NCBI GenBank assembly: GCA_026692905.1
Contig: JAPLNL010000119.1
Span: forward strand, 62,001 to 126,000
Direction: 5' to 3'
Origin: Planctomycetota bacterium
Lineage (GTDB): Bacteria; Planctomycetota; Planctomycetia; Pirellulales; Pirellulaceae
Length of the DNA: 64,000 bases
Below the pieces are notes generated by a model that saw only the letters and a program-made list of their open reading frames with translations, did no database searches and was not told where the DNA came from. Made by a program: the position numbers and the translations under genes. Below, piece by piece: positions 3,656-60,180 of this stretch (position 1 is its first letter; each line of letters begins with the position of its first letter).

Positions 3656-5488
3656 TCATTCCAGCTCGATTTGGTCTTGTCCGGTCGATTGCAGGTAGTG
3701 ACCCCAAAGAAGAAAGAGGCCACTCGTTGCGAAGTAACCACATGCAAGTTGCCACATCGATGATCGCATTCCGCTTGGGAGAATCCATGCGTCGGGAAGT
3801 CCTGGTACACCGACAGGCAAAAACAAGGCATTGTTGGGCACGGGGGAATGGATCAGTCCAAACAAGGTGAAGCCGCCAGCTATCGCGGCGAACACGGCAG
3901 CATGCTTCATTTTTCGGTCGATCGCCATGGCCAACAATGAGGCCCATAGCAAACTGGTCAGAATGAAGCCTTGCTTGAGGAGATGGACAGTCTGAAGATC
4001 GGACACTAGATCAGGGCGGAGCCTAAAGGCCGATTGAACCGTCTTCATTTGTTCGGCCATTGCTTCCTTTTCGGAGGCAAGCGAAGCGAGTCCATCGATG
4101 GCTTGTTGGATGTCTGGACGGAGCGAAGAATTACGGAGCGAAGAATCACGGAGCGAAGAATCACGGAGCGAAGAATCACCCAGCGAAATTCCGATGCCAC
4201 CCAAGAGCTGGTCTGCGTAAAGATAAGCCAAAAAGGCCAAAGCGGGAACGCAGGCAAAGACCAAGGCAGGGTAATGTCGTTTGGGAGTTGCCAAGAAGCT
4301 TTGAGCTGAAATTTCGAGTCCCACAAAGATCAAAATCGGATAGACCGCCGCTTTGGGAATGAGCATATAAAAGTAGCCGAAGCCCCCGAGCAATCCGATA
4401 GCTCCAACGGTAATCGCGGTACCAAGAACATAGGCAGCTCGTCCGCCCATCGCTTTGTAGGCTGGATGTCCGATGTACGGAGTCGTTTGTGTTACGCCAC
4501 CGAAGAGTCCAGCGACAAACGTCGCAAACGCTTCGACGCCCAATATTTGTCCCGTTGAATATTCGTCTCCTGCTGCGCTAGCTGACTCGGTGCAATCGAT
4601 ACCACCGACGACGGTACACAGAGCAAATGGGATGGCGACAGGTAGATAATTGATAGCTGGCCCCATTTGTTGCCACCAGCCAAAACCGAGGGCTGACATC
4701 CACGCAGTCGGAGGCAAACCTGGAGCAAGCGACGCCAATGTAGGTAGCGATTGTCCCGTCACTATGGTTTGGATGTAGTGAATGACGCCTCCAACCACTA
4801 GTGCTGCAAGCGTGCCCGGGATCTTGAATGGCAGAGGGACACGTCCGACCAAGCTGGTCAATACTATTGCCAGAGCCACGAGGCCGACGATGGGTTCACG
4901 AAATACATCTACCAGCGGAACGAAGCTGATAATGACCAGAGCGATCGAAGTTAGTGAGCCAAACAGGCCGGCTCGCGGGATAACTTTACGAACCCAAGCC
5001 CCACCGAATGAGCAAACGGTTTTGAAAATACCGGCATAGATCATACAGCAAATGCCAATATGCCAAGCAATCGTGGCTGCTTGTTCAGGTGAGGAGCCTG
5101 CCTTGAGGGCACTGGAGTAAGCAGCTCCGACCACAAAAATGGAGAGGCCAAAAATACTCGGCGTATCTAGCCCGAGCGGCATGGCGGTTACCTCTTGCCG
5201 GCCAGTCTTTTTGGCAAGCTGAAGAGCCATAAAAAAGTAAAGCAAATCACCGACCAACACACCGATGGCGGTTCCTGGGACCATGTGGTTCAGCACAAAT
5301 TCCTCGGGCATCTTAAAGCCCCCAACGAGGAGCCCAACCATCAAGACTAGGCCGGCGATGTTGTCCAAAAGCAGGCCAAAATAGGCGTTCACGTCACCTG
5401 AAGTTGCCCAGCGGTATCCACGATTCATTCGCAATTCCTCAGCTCGAGTCGGAAAATCTTTGGATGGAGAGACTAACATTGGTGTCAT
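3656..5488 (-). CDS. NCS2-like (xanthine/uracil permease superfamily) membrane transporter
   Basis: A polytopic membrane protein of about 610 residues with 12 or more hydrophobic segments. The stretch GGIDCTESASAAGDEY followed by TQTTPYIGHPAYKAMGGRA resembles the substrate-site region of NCS2/AzgA-type permeases, so a nucleobase-like or other small anion substrate is possible but not shown. A hydrophilic loop about three quarters along carries four copies of the pentapeptide DSSLR (one as NSSLR), encoded by a 15-bp tandem repeat, and a short helical stretch that has no counterpart in standard family members as far as I recall. ATG at 5488 is chosen; TTG at 5497 and ATG at 5479 are alternatives and none has a clear ribosome binding site. 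Confidence 0.75.
   Translation of the reverse strand: MTPMLVSPSKDFPTRAEELRMNRGYRWATSGDVNAYFGLLLDNIAGLVLMVGLLVGGFKMPEEFVLNHMVPGTAIGVLVGDLLYFFMALQLAKKTGRQEVTAMPLGLDTPSIFGLSIFVVGAAYSSALKAGSSPEQAATIAWHIGICCMIYAGIFKTVCSFGGAWVRKVIPRAGLFGSLTSIALVIISFVPLVDVFREPIVGLVALAIVLTSLVGRVPLPFKIPGTLAALVVGGVIHYIQTIVTGQSLPTLASLAPGLPPTAWMSALGFGWWQQMGPAINYLPVAIPFALCTVVGGIDCTESASAAGDEYSTGQILGVEAFATFVAGLFGGVTQTTPYIGHPAYKAMGGRAAYVLGTAITVGAIGLLGGFGYFYMLIPKAAVYPILIFVGLEISAQSFLATPKRHYPALVFACVPALAFLAYLYADQLLGGIGISLGDSSLRDSSLRDSSLRNSSLRPDIQQAIDGLASLASEKEAMAEQMKTVQSAFRLRPDLVSDLQTVHLLKQGFILTSLLWASLLAMAIDRKMKHAAVFAAIAGGFTLFGLIHSPVPNNALFLPVGVPGLPDAWILPSGMRSSMWQLACGYFATSGLFLLWGHYLQSTGQDQIELE
4119..4187. repeat. 15-bp tandem repeat inside the permease gene
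   Basis: Four tandem 15-bp units (CGGAGCGAAGAATCA, the first ending TTA) at 4119-4178, then a partial degenerate unit. The unit length keeps the reading frame and encodes repeated D-S-S-L-R on the minus strand. Copy number could change by slippage without breaking the protein. Confidence 0.95.
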
Positions 5489-16363: not shown

Positions 16364-16446
16364 CGTTTCTGGGCAGTGGAAACCGGGGCAGTGGTCTATT
16401 CATTCCAATAGGAAGGCCATCTCACTTTATTGGGGAAAGGTGTATA

Positions 16447-16572
16447 GCCGTGAAACGGCGACACCTCACCGTGGCGCCGTTTCACGGCTCTTGAATTCAT
16501 CGTTGCTAGAGACCGTGGGGCGAGCCCCACGGCTACCAAGTGTCGCCGCTATCGTGGCTAAGAAACAAAGCG
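16447..16572. repeat. Repeat family A, copy A1 (uninterrupted)
   Basis: Two adjoining palindromic modules: a hairpin with arms GCCGTGAAACGGCG... and ...CGCCGTTTCACGGC (16447-16488), and a second part 16510-16572 with the GTGGGGC/GCCCCAC hairpin followed by GTCGCCGCTATCGTGGCTAA. The second part recurs at 31862 and both at 39615-39880. The rest of the 16364-16893 gap holds further small GC-rich palindromes and no gene that I can support. Confidence 0.85.
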
Positions 16573-16893
16573 ATAGTCGCTTACCAGAAAATCGACAGGT
16601 CCAAAAGTGAATGGGCCACCGAGGCCGCTGGGGTCTCAAAGGAACTAGCCGCGTTACGATTTCCAGGGCAAACTAGCGCCCGCGGCTCAATTCGAACAAA
16701 GTGAGTGCCATTTGGCTAGCCCGTCGGCTAATTGCGTGACAACAAAAATTGACTTGCGCGTCGTGCTAGCATTTTGGCCAAACTACCCCGCTTATCTTGA
16801 GAGTATTTACCCATTTTTGCTAAAGTTGGTTTGGGGAAGTGCGCGATGGATGCGCACGAATGGATGAATAGATTTCTCAGATAGCCAGCACCG

Positions 16894-18099: not shown

Positions 18100-18232
18100 C
18101 GGCAACGCGGTGAAGCCTTATGTTGAGAAACTCGTCAAGAGTTTACGTCGTTTCGGCGATGCAGCCGAAAGTCTCGACGACTTTCGCTCCACAAAAGCCT
18201 GGTCTCTGCATCGAAAAAGGTTTTACAGCGTT
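18100..18232. repeat. Repeat family C, copy C1
   Basis: Starts GGCAACGCGGTGAAGC and contains the family core: GAAACTCGTCAAGAGTTT, a short spacer, then GCCGAAAGTCTCGACGACTT. It ends near TTTTACAGCGTTCCC. It lies entirely open in the frame of the downstream hydrolase, so it would be read as an N-terminal extension if translation began at 17972. Confidence 0.85.
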
Positions 18233-18268
18233 CCCCTCAAGAGGCGAGGGGAGCAAAGTCAAAAAGAT

Positions 18269-22718: not shown

Positions 22719-23012
22719 CTCGTTCCCAGGCTCCGCCTGGGAACGCAATGCATTGGAGGCTCCCGCCCACCGCTGTAAACATGTTTCCAACGAGTTTACC
22801 TAAGTCATTCATTGCTCGGGAGGGTGAGGCTCCTGTCAAACCTTTGCACCGTTGGCTCGGCAGGAGCCTCGCCCTCCCTAAGGTTTTCAATGGAATTGAC
22901 TTTGCAAAGATGTTTACAGCGGTGGGCTCCCGCCTCCTGAGTTCACTACTCGATAGCAACGCGAGGCGGAGCCTCGAAAACAGAGCGTTCCAACGCGGAG
23001 CCTTGGAACGAG
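22719..23012. repeat. Repeat family F, interrupted by a family B element
   Basis: Begins CTCGTTCCCAGGCTCCGCC and ends in GCCTTGGAACGAG, so its ends are inverted. The interior is split by the B1 element at 22767-22925. A short related piece (CTCGTTCCAAGGCTC) occurs at 55127. The gap 22630-23068 lies between two convergent genes and holds no gene that I can support. Confidence 0.8.
22767..22925. mobile_element. Family B element B1 (MITE-like) with target duplication
   Basis: A 159-bp element with perfect terminal inverted repeats CCACCGCTGTAAACAT / ATGTTTACAGCGGTGG. Inside is a hairpin with arms GGGAGGGTGAGGCTCCTG and CAGGAGCCTCGCCCTCCC. It is flanked by direct repeats GCTCCCGC (22759-22766 and 22926-22933), consistent with a target-site duplication of 8-9 bp. 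It carries no gene. Confidence 0.85.
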
Positions 23013-32725: not shown

Positions 32726-32764
32726 AGCGACGGACACGGATTTGGCTAAGCGATCTCCAAGTGT

Positions 32765-32889
32765 GCGGTGAAGCATTTTCCGCTGCTAAAACAAACATTT
32801 TTGTAGCGAAAGTCGTCAAAACTTTCGGCTGCATTGCATAAACCACCGAAACTCTTGACGAGTTTCGCTACAAAGTGCTTCTCAGCGTT
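32765..32889. repeat. Repeat family C, copy C2
   Basis: Left end GCGGTGAAGCATTTTCCGC, core TGTAGCGAAAGTCGTC ... CTCTTGACGAGTTTCGCTAC, right end AAAGTGCTTCTCAGCGTT. Terminal and inner parts are inverted repeats. The remainder of the 32726-33069 gap shows no gene. Confidence 0.85.
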
Positions 32890-33069
32890 CCCGAATAACG
32901 GTTAATGAGCGAAGATTAGTGTTCCTCTATTTGCAATGAAGTAGAATTCGGCGATTCAGAAGACCAACCATTCCGGTTTAGTTCGTTTGATTGGCTCGCA
33001 TTGGGTGACTTAGCTCATCCGTTCGAGTCAAGTCATGTCCTGCATCCGATTCAAAACCGAAACCTCACA

Positions 33070-38040: not shown

Positions 38041-38260
38041 CAAAGCTGTGAAGCAATTCAGGACGGTTGGGGCTTGCCCCTCCGTCCGCAGCTTTGGTGT
38101 TCTACATTCATGTCGCCTGCTTGCGTGCCTCCTTACTCGTCGCACCGCCTTTGGCGGTGCGACGAGTAAGGAGGCGTCATTTTGGTCACGCTACACATGA
38201 GAACACCAAAGCGGTGACCGGTCGGGACAAACCCGAACCGGACAAGACTTTTGCAGTGCT
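38041..38260. repeat. Large multi-arm palindromic element between convergent genes
   Basis: Begins with a family C-like end (CAAAGCTGTGAAGCA at 38041). Nested inverted arms follow: 38065-38079 with 38225-38239 (12 of 15), 38092-38103 with 38200-38211 (12 of 12, CTTTGGTGTTCT), and a central perfect 23-bp stem 38127-38149 / 38153-38175 with a TTT loop. There is no T run, so it is not a simple terminator. No gene is supported in 37942-38259. Confidence 0.85.
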
Positions 38261-39510
38261 TAACCCCTGATGTCATAGCACCAAACGTCCCCTTGATCGC
38301 GAACGTAAAGTTTACCGTTCGAAATCACAGGATGGGTCCATGGCTTGGCATTGCCATGTTCGCTGGTACCGGGCGGGGTTACGGTTCCCAATAATTTGAA
38401 ACCGCTGGCGGACGCTTCGATCATTGCTAACTGGTTTTTGAGGTTATGCAAATACAGTCGCCCATCTGCAAAACAAACCGAGGCTGAACCAATTCCACGA
38501 TCCTGCCACTTGATAGTCCCAGTCATGAAATCGACGCAAGCCATCGTTTCGCCGATCGAGCCATAGAGATTGCCGTCGATCAAAACGCTGCCGCCCATTC
38601 CTGCGGGCAGCGACTTCGCGAAGTAAAGTTCTTTAGGTTCGCTCTTTGCCCCAGTCACCTGCACGAGTCCACCACCGACACGACTTGCAGCGGAGTAGAC
38701 AAAGTTGCCGCTGGTGATCGGAGTTGCAATATTTGCCTGAGCATCCGATGTCTTGGTGTATCGCCAAAGCAATTCACCCGTACCGGCTTTAAGTCCGACG
38801 ATTCCTTTTCCAAGGTAAAGAACGTATTGTTTCACGCCGTCGATCGTAGCGATCACAGGCGACGAATAGCTTGCCGCATCGGCTTCGGTCAACGGCGACT
38901 TCCAAACGACTGAGCCGGTCGTTTTTTGCAATGCAACGACTGTTGCGGTTGCGCCACCTGGTGAGCAGATAAGCAGATCGCCATCGATTAGCGGAGACTC
39001 GGTATAAGCCCACATGCCAGCTACACCACCGAAGTCGCTACGCAAATTCTTGGCCCATTTCTTTTGTCCAGATTTGATATCGAGGCAAACAAGATCACCA
39101 TCGGACCCGAGCGCATAAACCGAATCTCCTACTACGGTTGGCGTAGCTCGCGTGCCGGGGTACTGAGGGCCTTGGTTCTTTCCGACTTTCCCGATCGGAG
39201 CCGACCAGACTTTATTGCCGGTGGCTGTTGAAAGGGCCATGACCTCTTCCTTTTCGTTTCCTCGATTGGAAATCACAAACAGCTGTTCACCAACCACCGA
39301 TGGAGTTGAATAGCCGTCGCCGATATCCTTGGCCTGCCATAGCAGTTTCGGCCCATTTTCTGGCCACGTTGCGAGCAACCCCTTTTCGGCCGACTTGCCA
39401 TCTCGCTGAGGGCCTCGCCATTGCCCCCAGTCGTCGGCATTTGCAACGCTTGACGCCAACGACAATGAAACAAAAGCTAGAGCAAAATGTTTTCCAATGT
39501 TCCACTTCAT
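38260..39510 (-). CDS. Secreted PQQ-like beta-propeller protein
   Basis: A 416-residue exported protein (signal peptide ending ASSVANA) with a beta-propeller made of repeats of the PQQ/BamB type: MALSTATGNKVWSAPIG, LVCLDIKSGQKKWAKNL, VVALQKTTGSVVWKSPL, IVGLKAGTGELLWRY, ACVDFMTGTIKWQDR. It opens with DWGQWRGPQRDGKS, the usual planctomycete variant. Such proteins are abundant in planctomycetes and their role is unknown; they lack an obvious dehydrogenase active site. ATG at 39510 has GGAGAG at 8 bases. Compare the paralogue at 55404. Confidence 0.85.
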   Translation of the reverse strand: MKWNIGKHFALAFVSLSLASSVANADDWGQWRGPQRDGKSAEKGLLATWPENGPKLLWQAKDIGDGYSTPSVVGEQLFVISNRGNEKEEVMALSTATGNKVWSAPIGKVGKNQGPQYPGTRATPTVVGDSVYALGSDGDLVCLDIKSGQKKWAKNLRSDFGGVAGMWAYTESPLIDGDLLICSPGGATATVVALQKTTGSVVWKSPLTEADAASYSSPVIATIDGVKQYVLYLGKGIVGLKAGTGELLWRYTKTSDAQANIATPITSGNFVYSAASRVGGGLVQVTGAKSEPKELYFAKSLPAGMGGSVLIDGNLYGSIGETMACVDFMTGTIKWQDRGIGSASVCFADGRLYLHNLKNQLAMIEASASGFKLLGTVTPPGTSEHGNAKPWTHPVISNGKLYVRDQGDVWCYDIRG

Positions 39511-39614: not shown

Positions 39615-39880
39615 CAAGCGCCGTGAAACGCTACGCTGTTTCGCATTTTGTAGCGAAACTCGTCAAGAGTTTCGGTGGTTTACGCAATGCAGCCGAAAGT
39701 CTTGACGACTTTCGCTACAGAAAAGCCCAATTTACATTGAGCAGAATGCGAAACAGCGTTGCGTGAAACGGCGCCACCACAACGTGGCGCCGTTTCACGG
39801 CGCTTGTATCCATCGTACGTAGAGACCATGGGGCAAGCCCCATGGCTACAAAATGTCGCCGCTATCGCGGCTAAGAAACA
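39615..39880. repeat. Repeat family A, copy A3, interrupted by element C3
   Basis: Outer arms CAAGCGCCGTGAAACG (39615-39630) and CGTTTCACGGCGCTTG (39791-39806) form the first family A hairpin, split by C3. The second module (GAGACCATGGGGCAAGCCCC, then GTCGCCGCTATCGCGGCTAA) runs to 39880. A decayed family C-like core follows to about 39950. The rest of the 39511-40004 gap has no gene. Confidence 0.9.
39631..39761. mobile_element. Family C element C3 (MITE-like) with 9-bp target duplication
   Basis: A 131-bp element with 20-bp terminal inverted repeats (CTACGCTGTTTCGCATTTTG; 18 of 20 match) and the family C inner hairpin (GTAGCGAAACTCGTC ... GACGACTTTCGCTAC). It is flanked by the direct repeat CGTGAAACG (39622-39630 and 39762-39770). 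Copy A1 at 16447 shows the same hairpin arm without insertion. No coding capacity. Confidence 0.9.
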
Positions 39881-40004
39881 AGTCTATCTCCGTTGCGAAA
39901 GTTGTAAAACTTCCTGGATTTTGAGGCACTTCAGGAACTCTTACGAGATTCCACTGCTTGCTAATTCAACGCCATTTGGGCTAATCCCGACGGGTAGCCG
40001 CATA

Positions 40005-42644
40005 CTATGGCAACGACTTGATCTCAAATGCGTCATCGACAAAGTCGACGTGGATACTACCACCGTCATTGACTTCGTGTCGAAGCAGTTCTGTTGCGAT
40101 CTTGTTTTGCAGTCTTCTCTGTATCACTCGCTTCAACGGTCTCGCTCCGTAGACGGGATCGTACCCTTCGTTGCTGATCGCATCGATCGCACGTTCCGAA
40201 ATATTGAGACGGTAATGGCTTTCCGCCAATTGTTGTTCCAGCTTTTCAATTTGCAGAACGACAATCTTTCGAATCTGCTCTTTACGAAGCGGTTCGAAAA
40301 TGATCATCTCGTCGATGCGATTCAAAAACTCGGGTAGGAATTTGGTTTTGAGAGAATCTTGAACCGCTTGTTGCATCTCCTCTTCGCTTCCGCCTTCTTC
40401 GGCAACGCGTTGGATCATCTGGCTTCCGATGTTGCTCGTCATCACGACGATCGTATTGGTAAAGTCGACGGTTCGATTTTGACCGTCAGTTAGTCGGCCA
40501 TCGTCGAGCAGTTGCAAAAGGATATTGAAGACATCCGTGTGTGCCTTTTCGATTTCATCGAGCAAGATAACGCTGTATGGCCGTCGACGGACCGCTTCGG
40601 TTAACTGGCCACCTTCCTCATAGCCAACATAACCAGGAGGTGCCCCTACCAGACGGCTGACGGTGTGGCGTTCCATGAATTCGCTCATGTCGATACGAAC
40701 CATGGCCGTTTCGTCATCAAACATGACTTCGGCCAAAGCCTTGCAGAGTTCTGTTTTGCCCACTCCGGTTGGTCCGAGGAACAAGAATGAGCCGATCGGT
40801 CTGTTCGCATCCTGCAAGCCACTTCGGCTTCGTCGAACGGCGTTGCTGATCGCTTCAACTGCCTTATTTTGACCGATCACCCGTTGATGCAAACGCTCTT
40901 CCATTACCAAAAGCTTTGCGCGTTCGGTCTCGAGCATGCGGGTTACAGGAACGCCCGTCCAGGAGCTGACTACCATGGCGATTTCGTCGGCTGTAACTTC
41001 CGTTCGAAGCAAACGTCGTTTTTCCGTTTCTTTGGTTTCCTTTGTCTCTTGGACTTCTTCCTTTGCGATCTGCTCTCGGACTTTGCGCAGTTGTTGATCG
41101 AGTTCAAAAAGCTTTTGATAGTCTGCTTCGGAGACACCTGCGCCGGAAGACTGCTGCTCCTTGATGCGTGAATCTAGCTGGCGAAACTCCCCTTCGGTTT
41201 GTTCAAGCGAGCGACGGACCGAACCTACACCCGAAAAGCCAAGTTTTTCCGATTCCCATTGCTCGCGAAGGCTGGCGAGTTCCCTTCGAACCTTTTCCAT
41301 TTCTTGTTCTATTGCCTCCAGCGCATCGTCAGTGCTGGTATCCGATTCTTCATTTAGCTGACGCTGTGCAAGTTCCAGTTGTCGAAGTCGTCGTTGAAGC
41401 GTATCGATCTCGGTTGGTACGCTGTCACGTTCCATCGCGAGCCTAGCGGACGCTTCATCGATCAAGTCGATAGCTTTGTCTGGTAGAAAGCGGTCCGTAA
41501 TGTAGCGATGCGAGAGCTTTGCTGCCTCAACCAAGGCCGCGTCGCGAATCTTGACACCGTGGTGGGCCTCGTACTTTGCTTTCAGGCCTCGAAGGATAGT
41601 GATCGTATCTTCTACGCTAGGCTCACCGACGTAAACAGGTTGGAAGCGGCGTTCGAGCGCAGCGTCCTTTTCAATGTGCTTACGATACTCATCAAGAGTG
41701 GTCGCGCCGATGCAGCGAAGTTGGCCTCGAGCGAGTTCGGGCTTGAGCAAATTGGCAGCATCGCTCGATCCCTCCGCGGCTCCTGCACCGATCACGGTAT
41801 GGAGTTCATCGATGAAGAGAATGACATCGCCATCCGCATCCTTTACCTCACGCAAGACCGCCTTGAGCCGTTCTTCAAACTCGCCGCGAAACTTGGTGCC
41901 AGCGATCAGAGACCCCATATCCAAAGAGATGACGCGGCGATTTTTTAAGCTCTGCGGAACGTCCCCCTGCACGATTCGTTGGGCCAACCCTTCGGCGATA
42001 GCCGTCTTGCCTACGCCAGGCTCACCGATCAATACGGGGTTGTTCTTGGTGCGTCGCGAAAGTACTTGGATCACTCTTCGGATTTCATTGTCGCGACCAA
42101 TGACCGGGTCGAGCTTGTTCTTGCTGGCCAACGCGACCAAATCGATCCCGTATTTTTCCAACGCTTGAAATTTGCCCTCAGGATTTTGGTCTGTCACACG
42201 TGCGCTCCCACGCACACTTTGAAGCGCATTGAGAATATCGGGTTCGGAGACACCCAGGAGTTTCAACAGGCTGCTTGCCTTGTTTTCCGTCCGGCAAAGT
42301 CCAAGTAATAAATGTTCCGTGCTAACAAACTCATCCTTCATGGCTTCCGCCGCAGATGCCGCAGCCTCAAAAGATTTTTGCAACGTGGGGCCAACCGAAG
42401 CTTGACGACCTCCGGAACTTCGCGGCAATCGCTGCATTTCGCTTTCGCAAGAAGACCGGATTTTGTCGAGTGGAGCCCCCATTTTCTTGAGCAATGGGAC
42501 AACAACCCCCTCATTATCCTTCAGCAAGGCCGCGAGCAAGTGCAGCCCTTCGATTTCGGGATTTCCGGCCGCGGTAGCTAGCGATTGTGCCTCGACTACG
42601 GCTTCTTGGCCCTTGATCGTCAGTTTATCCATGCGAAAAGTCAT
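40005..42644 (-). CDS. clpB: ATP-dependent disaggregase ClpB
   Basis: Hsp100 chaperone that with DnaK dissolves protein aggregates. The 879 residues show the Clp N domain (1-145, [17 protein letters not shown]), AAA-1 with Walker A GEPGVGKT at 207-214 and FIDELHT, the ClpB-specific coiled-coil middle domain (about 410-520) and AAA-2 with [26 protein letters not shown] and [13 protein letters not shown] at 42644 has GGAGAAG upstream; the much longer open frame to 42953 only reads repeat B4 and is rejected. No CIRCE-like element was seen upstream. Divergent from the DUF4159 gene. Confidence 0.96.
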
Positions 42645-42814
42645 CGTTCTTCTCCGTGATTGGCAGTGGGGATTACGAAAATCCGTTGAATGCAAATCGT
42701 GCGCCGAAAACCACTGCACTGGAAACGACCGAGCTTTACCCCGGCTTAACCCCAAAATCAAAACGGGTAACTTCAAAGCCTGATCGAGTGACTCTACCAA
42801 GTCCAGTTCAGACC

Positions 42815-42930
42815 TTAGGGAGGGCGAGGCTCCTGCCGAGCCAGCGGTGAAAAGGTTCGGCAGGAGCCTCACCCTCCCCAGCCATGATTTGCTTAGGTAA
42901 ACTCCAAGAAAAAATGTTTGGAGCGATGGC
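42815..42930. repeat. Family B, diverged copy B4
   Basis: Inner hairpin GGGAGGGCGAGGCTCCTGCC ... GGCAGGAGCCTCACCCTCCC, then CTTAGGTAAACT and a decayed right end AAAATGTTTGGAGCGATGG. It matches B2 in the same orientation. The left terminal repeat is not recognisable. The rest of the 42645-43038 gap between the divergent clpB and DUF4159 genes shows no gene. Confidence 0.8.
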
Positions 42931-43038
42931 CTCGCGCTACCATTGGAACCCATGGCACGTAAGTTTCAGCCTGTCGCTCGTCTTAATGCTACAATAATCG
43001 CCCAATCAAAATTGATTTTCGAAACAGGTTACTATCGC

Positions 43039-51695: not shown

Positions 51696-51849
51696 ATCGG
51701 TGTCCTTACCCTAAGCGGTTGCCAGGTGATCTTTCACCAAACGTCGGTCCGTCGGGATTGTAGCCTGTCGCGTGAGCTTGGCCAAGAGAATTCCAAAAAC
51801 GCTAGGAATACTTGGAAAGCTAGCGAAAACCCCATGCAATTTATTTTTC

Positions 51850-51960
51850 GGGAGGGTAAGGCTCCTGCCGAACCGTAGCGCCGCAAGCTCGGCAGGAGCC
51901 TCGCCCTCCCATAGGATTTCAAAGGAGCCGGCAAAGCAAAGATGTTGAAAGCAGTGGGCT
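51850..51960. repeat. Family B, diverged copy B3
   Basis: GGGAGGGTAAGGCTCCTGCC ... GGCAGGAGCCTCGCCCTCCC followed by a decayed right end GATGTTGAAAGCAGTGGGC. Another hairpin (AGCCTGTGC ... GCCACAGG) follows to about 52020. The gap 51696-52116 separates divergent genes; no gene is supported. Confidence 0.8.
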
Positions 51961-58389: not shown

Positions 58390-58620
58390 AATGGGAGAGC
58401 CAGGCTCCTGCCGAGCTTGGTAACGGTTCGGCAGGAGCCTCTCCCCACCGCTGTAAACATCTTTGCACAGTCAATTCCATTGAAAAACATTAGGGAGTGC
58501 GAGGCTCCTGCCGACCAAACGGTGCAAAGGTTCGGCAGGAGCCTCACCCTCCCGAGCAATGAATGACTTAGGTAAACTCGTTGGAAACATGTTTACCGCG
58601 GTGGAGCCTCTCCCTCCCGG
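58390..58620. repeat. Hairpin repeat interrupted by family B element B2
   Basis: Left arm GGGAGAGCCAGGCTCCTGCC and right arm GGCAGGAGCCTCTCC form a hairpin of the kind found inside family B. Its right arm is split by B2 and resumes as CTCTCCCTCCC after 58605. Confidence 0.85.
58445..58604. mobile_element. Family B element B2 (MITE-like) with 9-bp target duplication
   Basis: A 160-bp element with ends CCACCGCTGTAAACAT and ATGTTTACCGCGGTGG (15 of 16), the reverse complement orientation of B1. It is flanked by AGCCTCTCC on both sides (58436-58444 and 58605-58613). Its inner hairpin is GGGAGTGCGAGGCTCCTGCC ... GGCAGGAGCCTCACCCTCCC. No coding capacity. Confidence 0.9.
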
Positions 58621-58645: not shown

Positions 58646-58775
58646 AGGCAATGCTGTGAAGCATCTTGTAGCGAAACTCGTCAAGAGTTTCGGTCGTTTA
58701 AGTGATGCAGCCGAAAGTCTTGACGACTTTCGCTTCACAAAACCCTGTCTTTAGCTGCACAAGATGCTTCAAAAC
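58646..58775. repeat. Repeat family C, copy C4
   Basis: GGCAATGCTGTGAAGCATC at the left; perfect 13-bp inner terminal pair TGAAGCATCTTGT (58657-58669) and ACAAGATGCTTCA (58759-58771); core GTAGCGAAACTCGTCAAGAG ... CTTGACGACTTTCGCT. The extreme right end has decayed. Confidence 0.85.
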
Positions 58776-60046: not shown

Positions 60047-60180
60047 GCAAAGCGGTGAAGCATTTTCCGCCGAAAAAAACCATGCTTTTGTGTAGCGAAA
60101 GTCGTCAAGACTTTTGGCTGAATCGCCTAAACGACCGAAACTCTTGGCGAGTTTCGCTACAAAATGCTTCACCGCATTGC
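60047..60180. repeat. Repeat family C, copy C5
   Basis: Terminal inverted repeats GCAAAGCGGTGAAGCATTTT (60047-60066) and AAAATGCTTCACCGCATTGC (60161-60180), 19 of 20 matched. Inner arms TGTAGCGAAAGTCGTCAAG and CTTGGCGAGTTTCGCTACA. It lies between convergent genes. Flanks CTATCTTGG and CAGTCTTGA agree in 6 of 9 positions, a possible worn target duplication. Confidence 0.9.

Follow-up and report, generated by a model that had tools for sequence, protein, structure and literature searches.

The 131-bp repeat element located at positions 39631-39761 (plus strand) of the window, i.e., the 64,000-nucleotide stretch of planctomycete DNA analyzed in this study, is with high confidence an IS4-type MITE that was inserted with duplication of its target, which is the best explanation of the findings as a whole. 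The compared sequences show that the element, here termed Ca, is a real MITE that has moved recently and belongs to an IS4-type transposase clade favoring palindromic targets.

Structure of the Element and Its Insertion Site

A previous sequence-only reading of the window had described this copy, named C3, as being bounded by a 9-bp duplication and by 20-bp inverted ends. Both features were recovered: CGTGAAACG occurs exactly on either side of the element (left and right target-site duplications at 39622-39630 and 39762-39770, plus strand), and the inverted ends match at 18 out of 20 positions (39631-39650, CTACGCTGTTTCGCATTTTG, and 39742-39761, CAACGCTGTTTCGCATTCTG). C3 has no ORF of its own and, at 131 bp, is too short to encode a transposase; the size, the inverted ends, and the missing transposase gene are characteristic of a MITE. 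The element folds into a single hairpin nearly from end to end (z = -10.5 as compared to 200 shuffles).

Removal of C3 together with one 9-mer in silico yielded a perfectly paired stem of 23 bp and a loop of 6 nt (CAAGCGCCGTGAAACGGCGCCAC), whereas the stem in the right flank alone comprises 16 bp. The restored stem consists of the interrupted left arm of a family A hairpin (39615-39630, resuming at 39771-39777) and the right arm of the same hairpin (39784-39806), followed by the remainder of this left-truncated family A copy with the second hairpin and the right end (39807-39881; all on the plus strand). The minus-strand neighbors of C3 were identified by means of Pfam as a PQQ/BamB-like beta-propeller protein (38260-39510) and a ClpB-like AAA+ protein (40005-42953).

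The uninterrupted arm that had been reported for family A copy A1 at position 16447 was found there (uninterrupted hairpin at 16447-16568, plus strand), as were 35 intact GCCGTGWAACGGC sites in the whole genome, a control pattern yielding 0 and 1 matches. The proposal that pre- and post-insertion states coexist in one window therefore holds by paralogy, but not by orthology, since the site at 16447 is a paralogous empty site and the family A target is missing from the orthologous loci of the nearest relative. Empty-site searches were performed with the window locus and the joined or trimmed flanks of eight copies from the related genome G021 and seven from G000, the genome of the window. No clean orthologous pre-insertion site for Ca was found between the loci of these two genomes, which is attributed to too-rapid turnover of family A: at comparable loci, the family A target itself was absent, replaced, or diverged. 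A near paralog on contig C36 of G000 carries an uninterrupted GACGCCCTAAAAAGGGCGTC hairpin resembling the one interrupted on contig C101 of G021.

Copy Number, Target Duplications, and Related Repeats

G000 (6.0 Mb, a draft of 148 contigs, 95.95% complete) and G021 represent uncultured planctomycetes of the same genus. Searches with the element revealed 40 C-like loci in G000 and at least 14 in G021, which can be divided into subfamily Ca with the ends CAACGCTGTTTCGCAT and subfamily Cb with the ends CAACGCTGTGAAGCAT. A scan of the retrieved loci gave 36 rows, corresponding after merging of the two strands to 20 separate Ca insertions that are full-length and have both of their flanks (8 in G000 and 12 in G021). 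The sequence-only reading had proposed to look for additional copies with matching 9-bp flanks, and these are frequent: among the 20 insertions, 17 have duplicated 9 bp of the target (≥8/9) and two have duplicated 10 bp, while one lacks a duplication. All eight insertions in G000 are flanked by 9/9 duplications, while those in G021 comprise nine with 9/9 or 8/9, two with 10 bp (10/10 and 9/10), and one without duplication (6/9). By chance, direct repeats of ≥8/9 at the spacing of C3 occurred at 24 out of 200,000 random window positions.

The duplicated targets include CGTGAAACG, CGTGTAACG, CGTTTTACG, CCCTGCACG, GGAACCGGG, CYCGATAGG, CGCTATCGCG, and CCTAAAAAGG, two of the targets being 10-mers. 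At least eight different target sequences were duplicated, which rules out the copying of one larger unit. Identical flanks at all copies, named beforehand as the outcome speaking against transposition, were not observed; the flanks differ among loci and agree within each locus, and such co-variation of the left and right 9-mers cannot be produced by a fixed larger unit. Ca is inserted in both orientations. Within family A, it occupies either end and both of the central arms, and it is also present at non-A sites, e.g., CCCGGTTCC, CGTGCAGGG, CGTAAAACG, and CCTAAAAAGG. Full-length Ca copies are 95-99% identical among each other, compared to 76-95% for A copies. Many dispersed copies, nearly all with a duplicated target, are again typical of MITEs, and the duplications at differing targets support the earlier proposal that a gene-less 131-bp element was transposed.

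The sister subfamily Cb is represented in the window by four degraded copies, located at 60048-60179 (plus strand, ends CAACGCTGTGAAGCATTTT, with a decayed 9-bp duplication of 6/9), 58649-58757 (plus strand, degraded right end), 32761-32890 (minus strand, degraded), and 18103-18233 (plus strand, duplication not recognizable). In a pooled scan for Cb-type ends covering 29 elements, flanks matched with ≥6/9 at the predicted position in 20 cases, of which about nine represent Cb, and in 0-3 cases at positions shifted by 1-3 bases; with a tolerance of up to four mismatches, the scan also captured Ca copies among the 29 elements. Since its copies are mostly decayed, Cb appears to be older.

Further repeats were also observed in the window. 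A dispersed palindromic family, GGGAGGGCGAGGCTCCTGCCGAGCC...GGTTCGGCAGGAGCCTCACCCTCCC, occurs at 22807-22928, 42812-42929, 51839-51960, and 58487-58604; its copy at 42812-42929 is located in the 5' portion of the ClpB-like ORF, suggesting that the true start of this gene probably lies further downstream. Moreover, a 15-bp unit, ACGGAGCGAAGAATC, forms a tandem array at 4118-4192.

Target Choice

Family A constitutes a large imperfect palindrome of the type TTTAGCCGTGTAACGGCGACA ... GTGAAACGGCGCCAC ... GTGGCGCCGTTTCAC ... CGCCGCTATCGCGGCTAAGAAAC. Within the reconstructed Ca targets, on average 0.65 of the symmetric base pairs are complementary, as compared to 0.25 at random positions, the former value being derived from a set that is dominated by family A and contains most sites twice, once per strand. 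One target, GGAACCGGG, has a palindromy score of zero. These sequence comparisons indicate that the Ca element prefers short palindromes. This preference accounts for the repeated landing of Ca in the arms of family A, as these arms offer the preferred palindrome CCGTGWAACGG. Tn5 and ISRm22, which belong to the IS4 family, are known to use symmetric targets with GC ends (PMC1525189).

Family A, with a length of ~210-275 bp and ends near GGCCGTCTCACTTT and AAAGTGAGACGGCC (16420-16620; loci L244, L247, and L248), is probably itself MITE-like, and whole copies of it are missing from orthologous loci in G021.

An Autonomous IS4-Type Partner

The exact 16-bp end of Ca was scanned in 241 genomes of the family and found in four of them, all belonging to one genus. 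In G015, a third species of this genus, an autonomous insertion sequence of 1647 bp with facing ends and a single ORF of 502 amino acids was identified (contig C262, 6448-8094). Its 17-bp ends are identical to those of Ca, meaning that the MITE and an autonomous element have their ends in common. The insertion sequence is flanked by the 9-bp duplication CCCAACGGG on the left (contig C262) and CCCAACGGG on the right (contig C212), possibly originating from different copies.

The IS4 family is defined by a single-ORF transposase featuring D(60-110)D(100-150)E and Y(2)R(3)E(6)K, and its subgroups generate target duplications of 7-13 bp, about one helix turn (PMC2266710). The partner agrees with this definition in its single ORF, its catalytic spacing (D154-100-D255-100-E356), and its YREK motif (YKMRWGIEVEFRGLK), the latter or a near form of it being common to the aligned relatives of the transposase. 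The duplication length also agrees, with 9 bp in G015 and several relatives. The transposase passed the cut-off of Pfam DDE_Tnp_1 (PF01609, 1.1e-14), scored 94.8 bits against the closest curated IS4 model of NCBI, i.e., below its cut-off of 115, and had no sequence match among solved structures. The best plasmid-borne matches are only about 24% identical.

Relatives of the insertion sequence comprise a truncated copy in G009 (91% identical) and an element in G011 (52% identical). The latter, with an 8/9 duplication, possesses exactly the Cb ends, so that Cb is paired with the end variant CAACGCTGTGAAGCAT of a second insertion sequence from the same transposase clade. More distant relatives with CAACGCYGT ends occur across the family, and exact 9-bp duplications among the relatives are CCCTGCGGG, CCCCTCACC, GGTGAGGAG, and GGTGAGGGG. 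One relative in G196 (locus L347, 1244-2987) is seemingly nested in another element with the inverted ends TGGATGGAAC...GGGGGAGAGGG and the 9-bp duplication AGTCGAACT.

A transposase gene with ends matching those of Ca, which the sequence-only reading had suggested to look for, is thus present in a congeneric genome, but no clade transposase or autonomous insertion sequence was found at E<=0.001 in either of the genomes rich in Ca copies, i.e., draft G000 and G021. An autonomous helper residing in the same genome is usual for MITEs, albeit not required. Accordingly, the elements may lack a helper at present, or the drafts miss it; the helper is inferred to be the transposase of other species of the genus.

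Insertion Sequence Ends Surrounding a REP Doublet

C3 is composed of IS-like ends of 19 bp and 42 bp around a GTAG...CTAC REP doublet. The terminal inverted repeat at 39631-39649 (plus strand) corresponds to the right end of the insertion sequence, with 17 of 19 bp aligned and no mismatch among them; at base 2, C3 has a private change. On the other side, the terminal inverted repeat and subterminal sequence at 39720-39761 (minus strand) are identical to the left end of the insertion sequence at 38 of 42 positions. The core (39650-39718, plus strand) consists of two inverted GTAG-type REP hairpins, GTAGCGAAACTCGTCAAGAGTTTCGG ... CCGAAAGTCTTGACGACTTTCGCTAC. Its inverted hairpins with GTAG on the outside and its dispersal as an independent unit correspond to a REPIN or GTAG-REP dimer: the doublet was detected without IS ends in G024, G023, G032 (in tandem), G028, and G022. 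The array in G032 (locus L116, 1500-1900) has a unit of about 98 bp.

Ca therefore looks like a REP doublet set between two IS4-type ends. Planctomycetes are known to harbor REP families with the GTAG tag, and in other phyla, REP dimers situated within a longer palindrome have been described for Anabaena variabilis and H. neapolitanus (PMC3733652). It is conceivable, although rather doubtful, that Ca represents a chimera of two mobility systems, in which a RAYT-type REP doublet was captured between IS4-type ends. If so, an IS4 transposase would now be spreading a REPIN into palindromic arms that belong to another repeat family, and Ca may still be recognized by both enzymes.

Proposed Mechanism and Alternative Explanations

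In the proposed course of events, the transposase would recognize the CAACGCTGTTTCGCAT ends of Ca, staggered strand transfer would place the element into a short palindrome, and repair by the host would generate the 9-bp, sometimes 10-bp, duplication. Mobilization presumably takes place in trans, and cut-and-paste chemistry would be expected from what is known of the IS4 family. Ca may have originated from an internally deleted copy of the insertion sequence that either became joined to a REP doublet or was invaded by one.

C could instead belong permanently to a larger A+C repeat that spreads as one unit and merely includes the 9-bp direct repeat, as most G000 copies reside in family A hairpins with CGTGWAACG flanks. 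Moreover, whole A composites are absent from orthologous G021 loci, so that some of them may have moved or been lost together. Nevertheless, this explanation is very improbable, given that the 9-mers differ between loci and agree within them, that C occupies each of the four palindromic sub-sites of A, is inserted in both orientations, and also occurs in non-A targets, that 35 A-type sites are intact and free of C, and that Ca copies are more alike than A copies. Co-amplification as a general explanation is refuted by the non-A insertions; single loci could still fit. A chance match or an assembly artefact has the lowest probability of all. G000 is a draft in which some contigs end at these repeats, but the C3 locus is internal to a 335-kb contig, the same structure occurs in independent assemblies, and the proportion of duplicated targets far exceeds the random expectation given above. 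Thus, the agreement of the targets within loci and their difference between loci lead to rejection of both the A+C and the chance model.

Movement of C as a REPIN by a RAYT (Y1 transposase), with the outer ends merely being flanking target sequence, was considered because of the GTAG-tagged inverted doublet, which is found alone in relatives, and the REP dimers embedded in palindromes mentioned above. However, the duplicated 9-mers are located outside the CAACGCTG ends rather than at the GTAG boundary, and the ends of Ca are those of an IS4-type element. A 9-bp duplication is not expected either, as Y1 transposases, being HUH enzymes, are not known to leave one. RAYT-driven movement is hence contradicted for the present mobility and, as an explanation of the element, highly unlikely, but may describe the arrival of the core.

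Comparison with Known Systems

Interpreting Ca as an IS4-type MITE connects a specific clade of transposases with a major family of dispersed repeats in an environmental genus of planctomycetes, and the transposase's putative preference for short palindromes is offered as the reason for the pile-up of hairpin repeats inside one another. The two matched end variants (Ca/IS-a and Cb/IS-b) permit a direct test of transposase-end specificity.

The partner resembles the IS4 family in its single-ORF DDE transposase, the YREK motif, the CA ends, the length of ~1.6 kb, and the 9-bp duplications; its length, its CA ends, and the size of the duplication are similar to those of IS4Sa (Table 1 in PMC2266710). 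It differs in scoring below the curated model cut-off and in its distance from plasmid-borne matches. Like other IS4-family MITEs, Ca is a short derivative keeping the ends; in contrast to them, it contains a REP doublet. Insertion sequences targeting REP palindromes, such as ISRm22 (PMC1525189), are comparable as IS4-family elements found repeatedly in a dispersed palindromic repeat, with palindromic targets and GC pairs at the duplication ends. In the case of Ca, however, the invader is non-autonomous and mostly enters an arm of a different, larger hairpin repeat.

With GTAG-tagged REP dimers and REPINs, Ca shares the two inverted GTAG hairpins of its core, and REP dimers inside larger palindromes have already been noted in other phyla (PMC3733652, PMC3116915), where the surrounding palindrome was reported without explanation (PMC3733652). 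Ca differs in that the enclosing palindrome consists of IS4-type transposon ends moving with a 9-bp duplication, and hence provides a concrete case in which transposon ends account for the palindrome surrounding a REP doublet. While the general phenomenon is known, the new aspect is a REP-doublet core framed by IS4 ends and repeatedly targeting another hairpin repeat.
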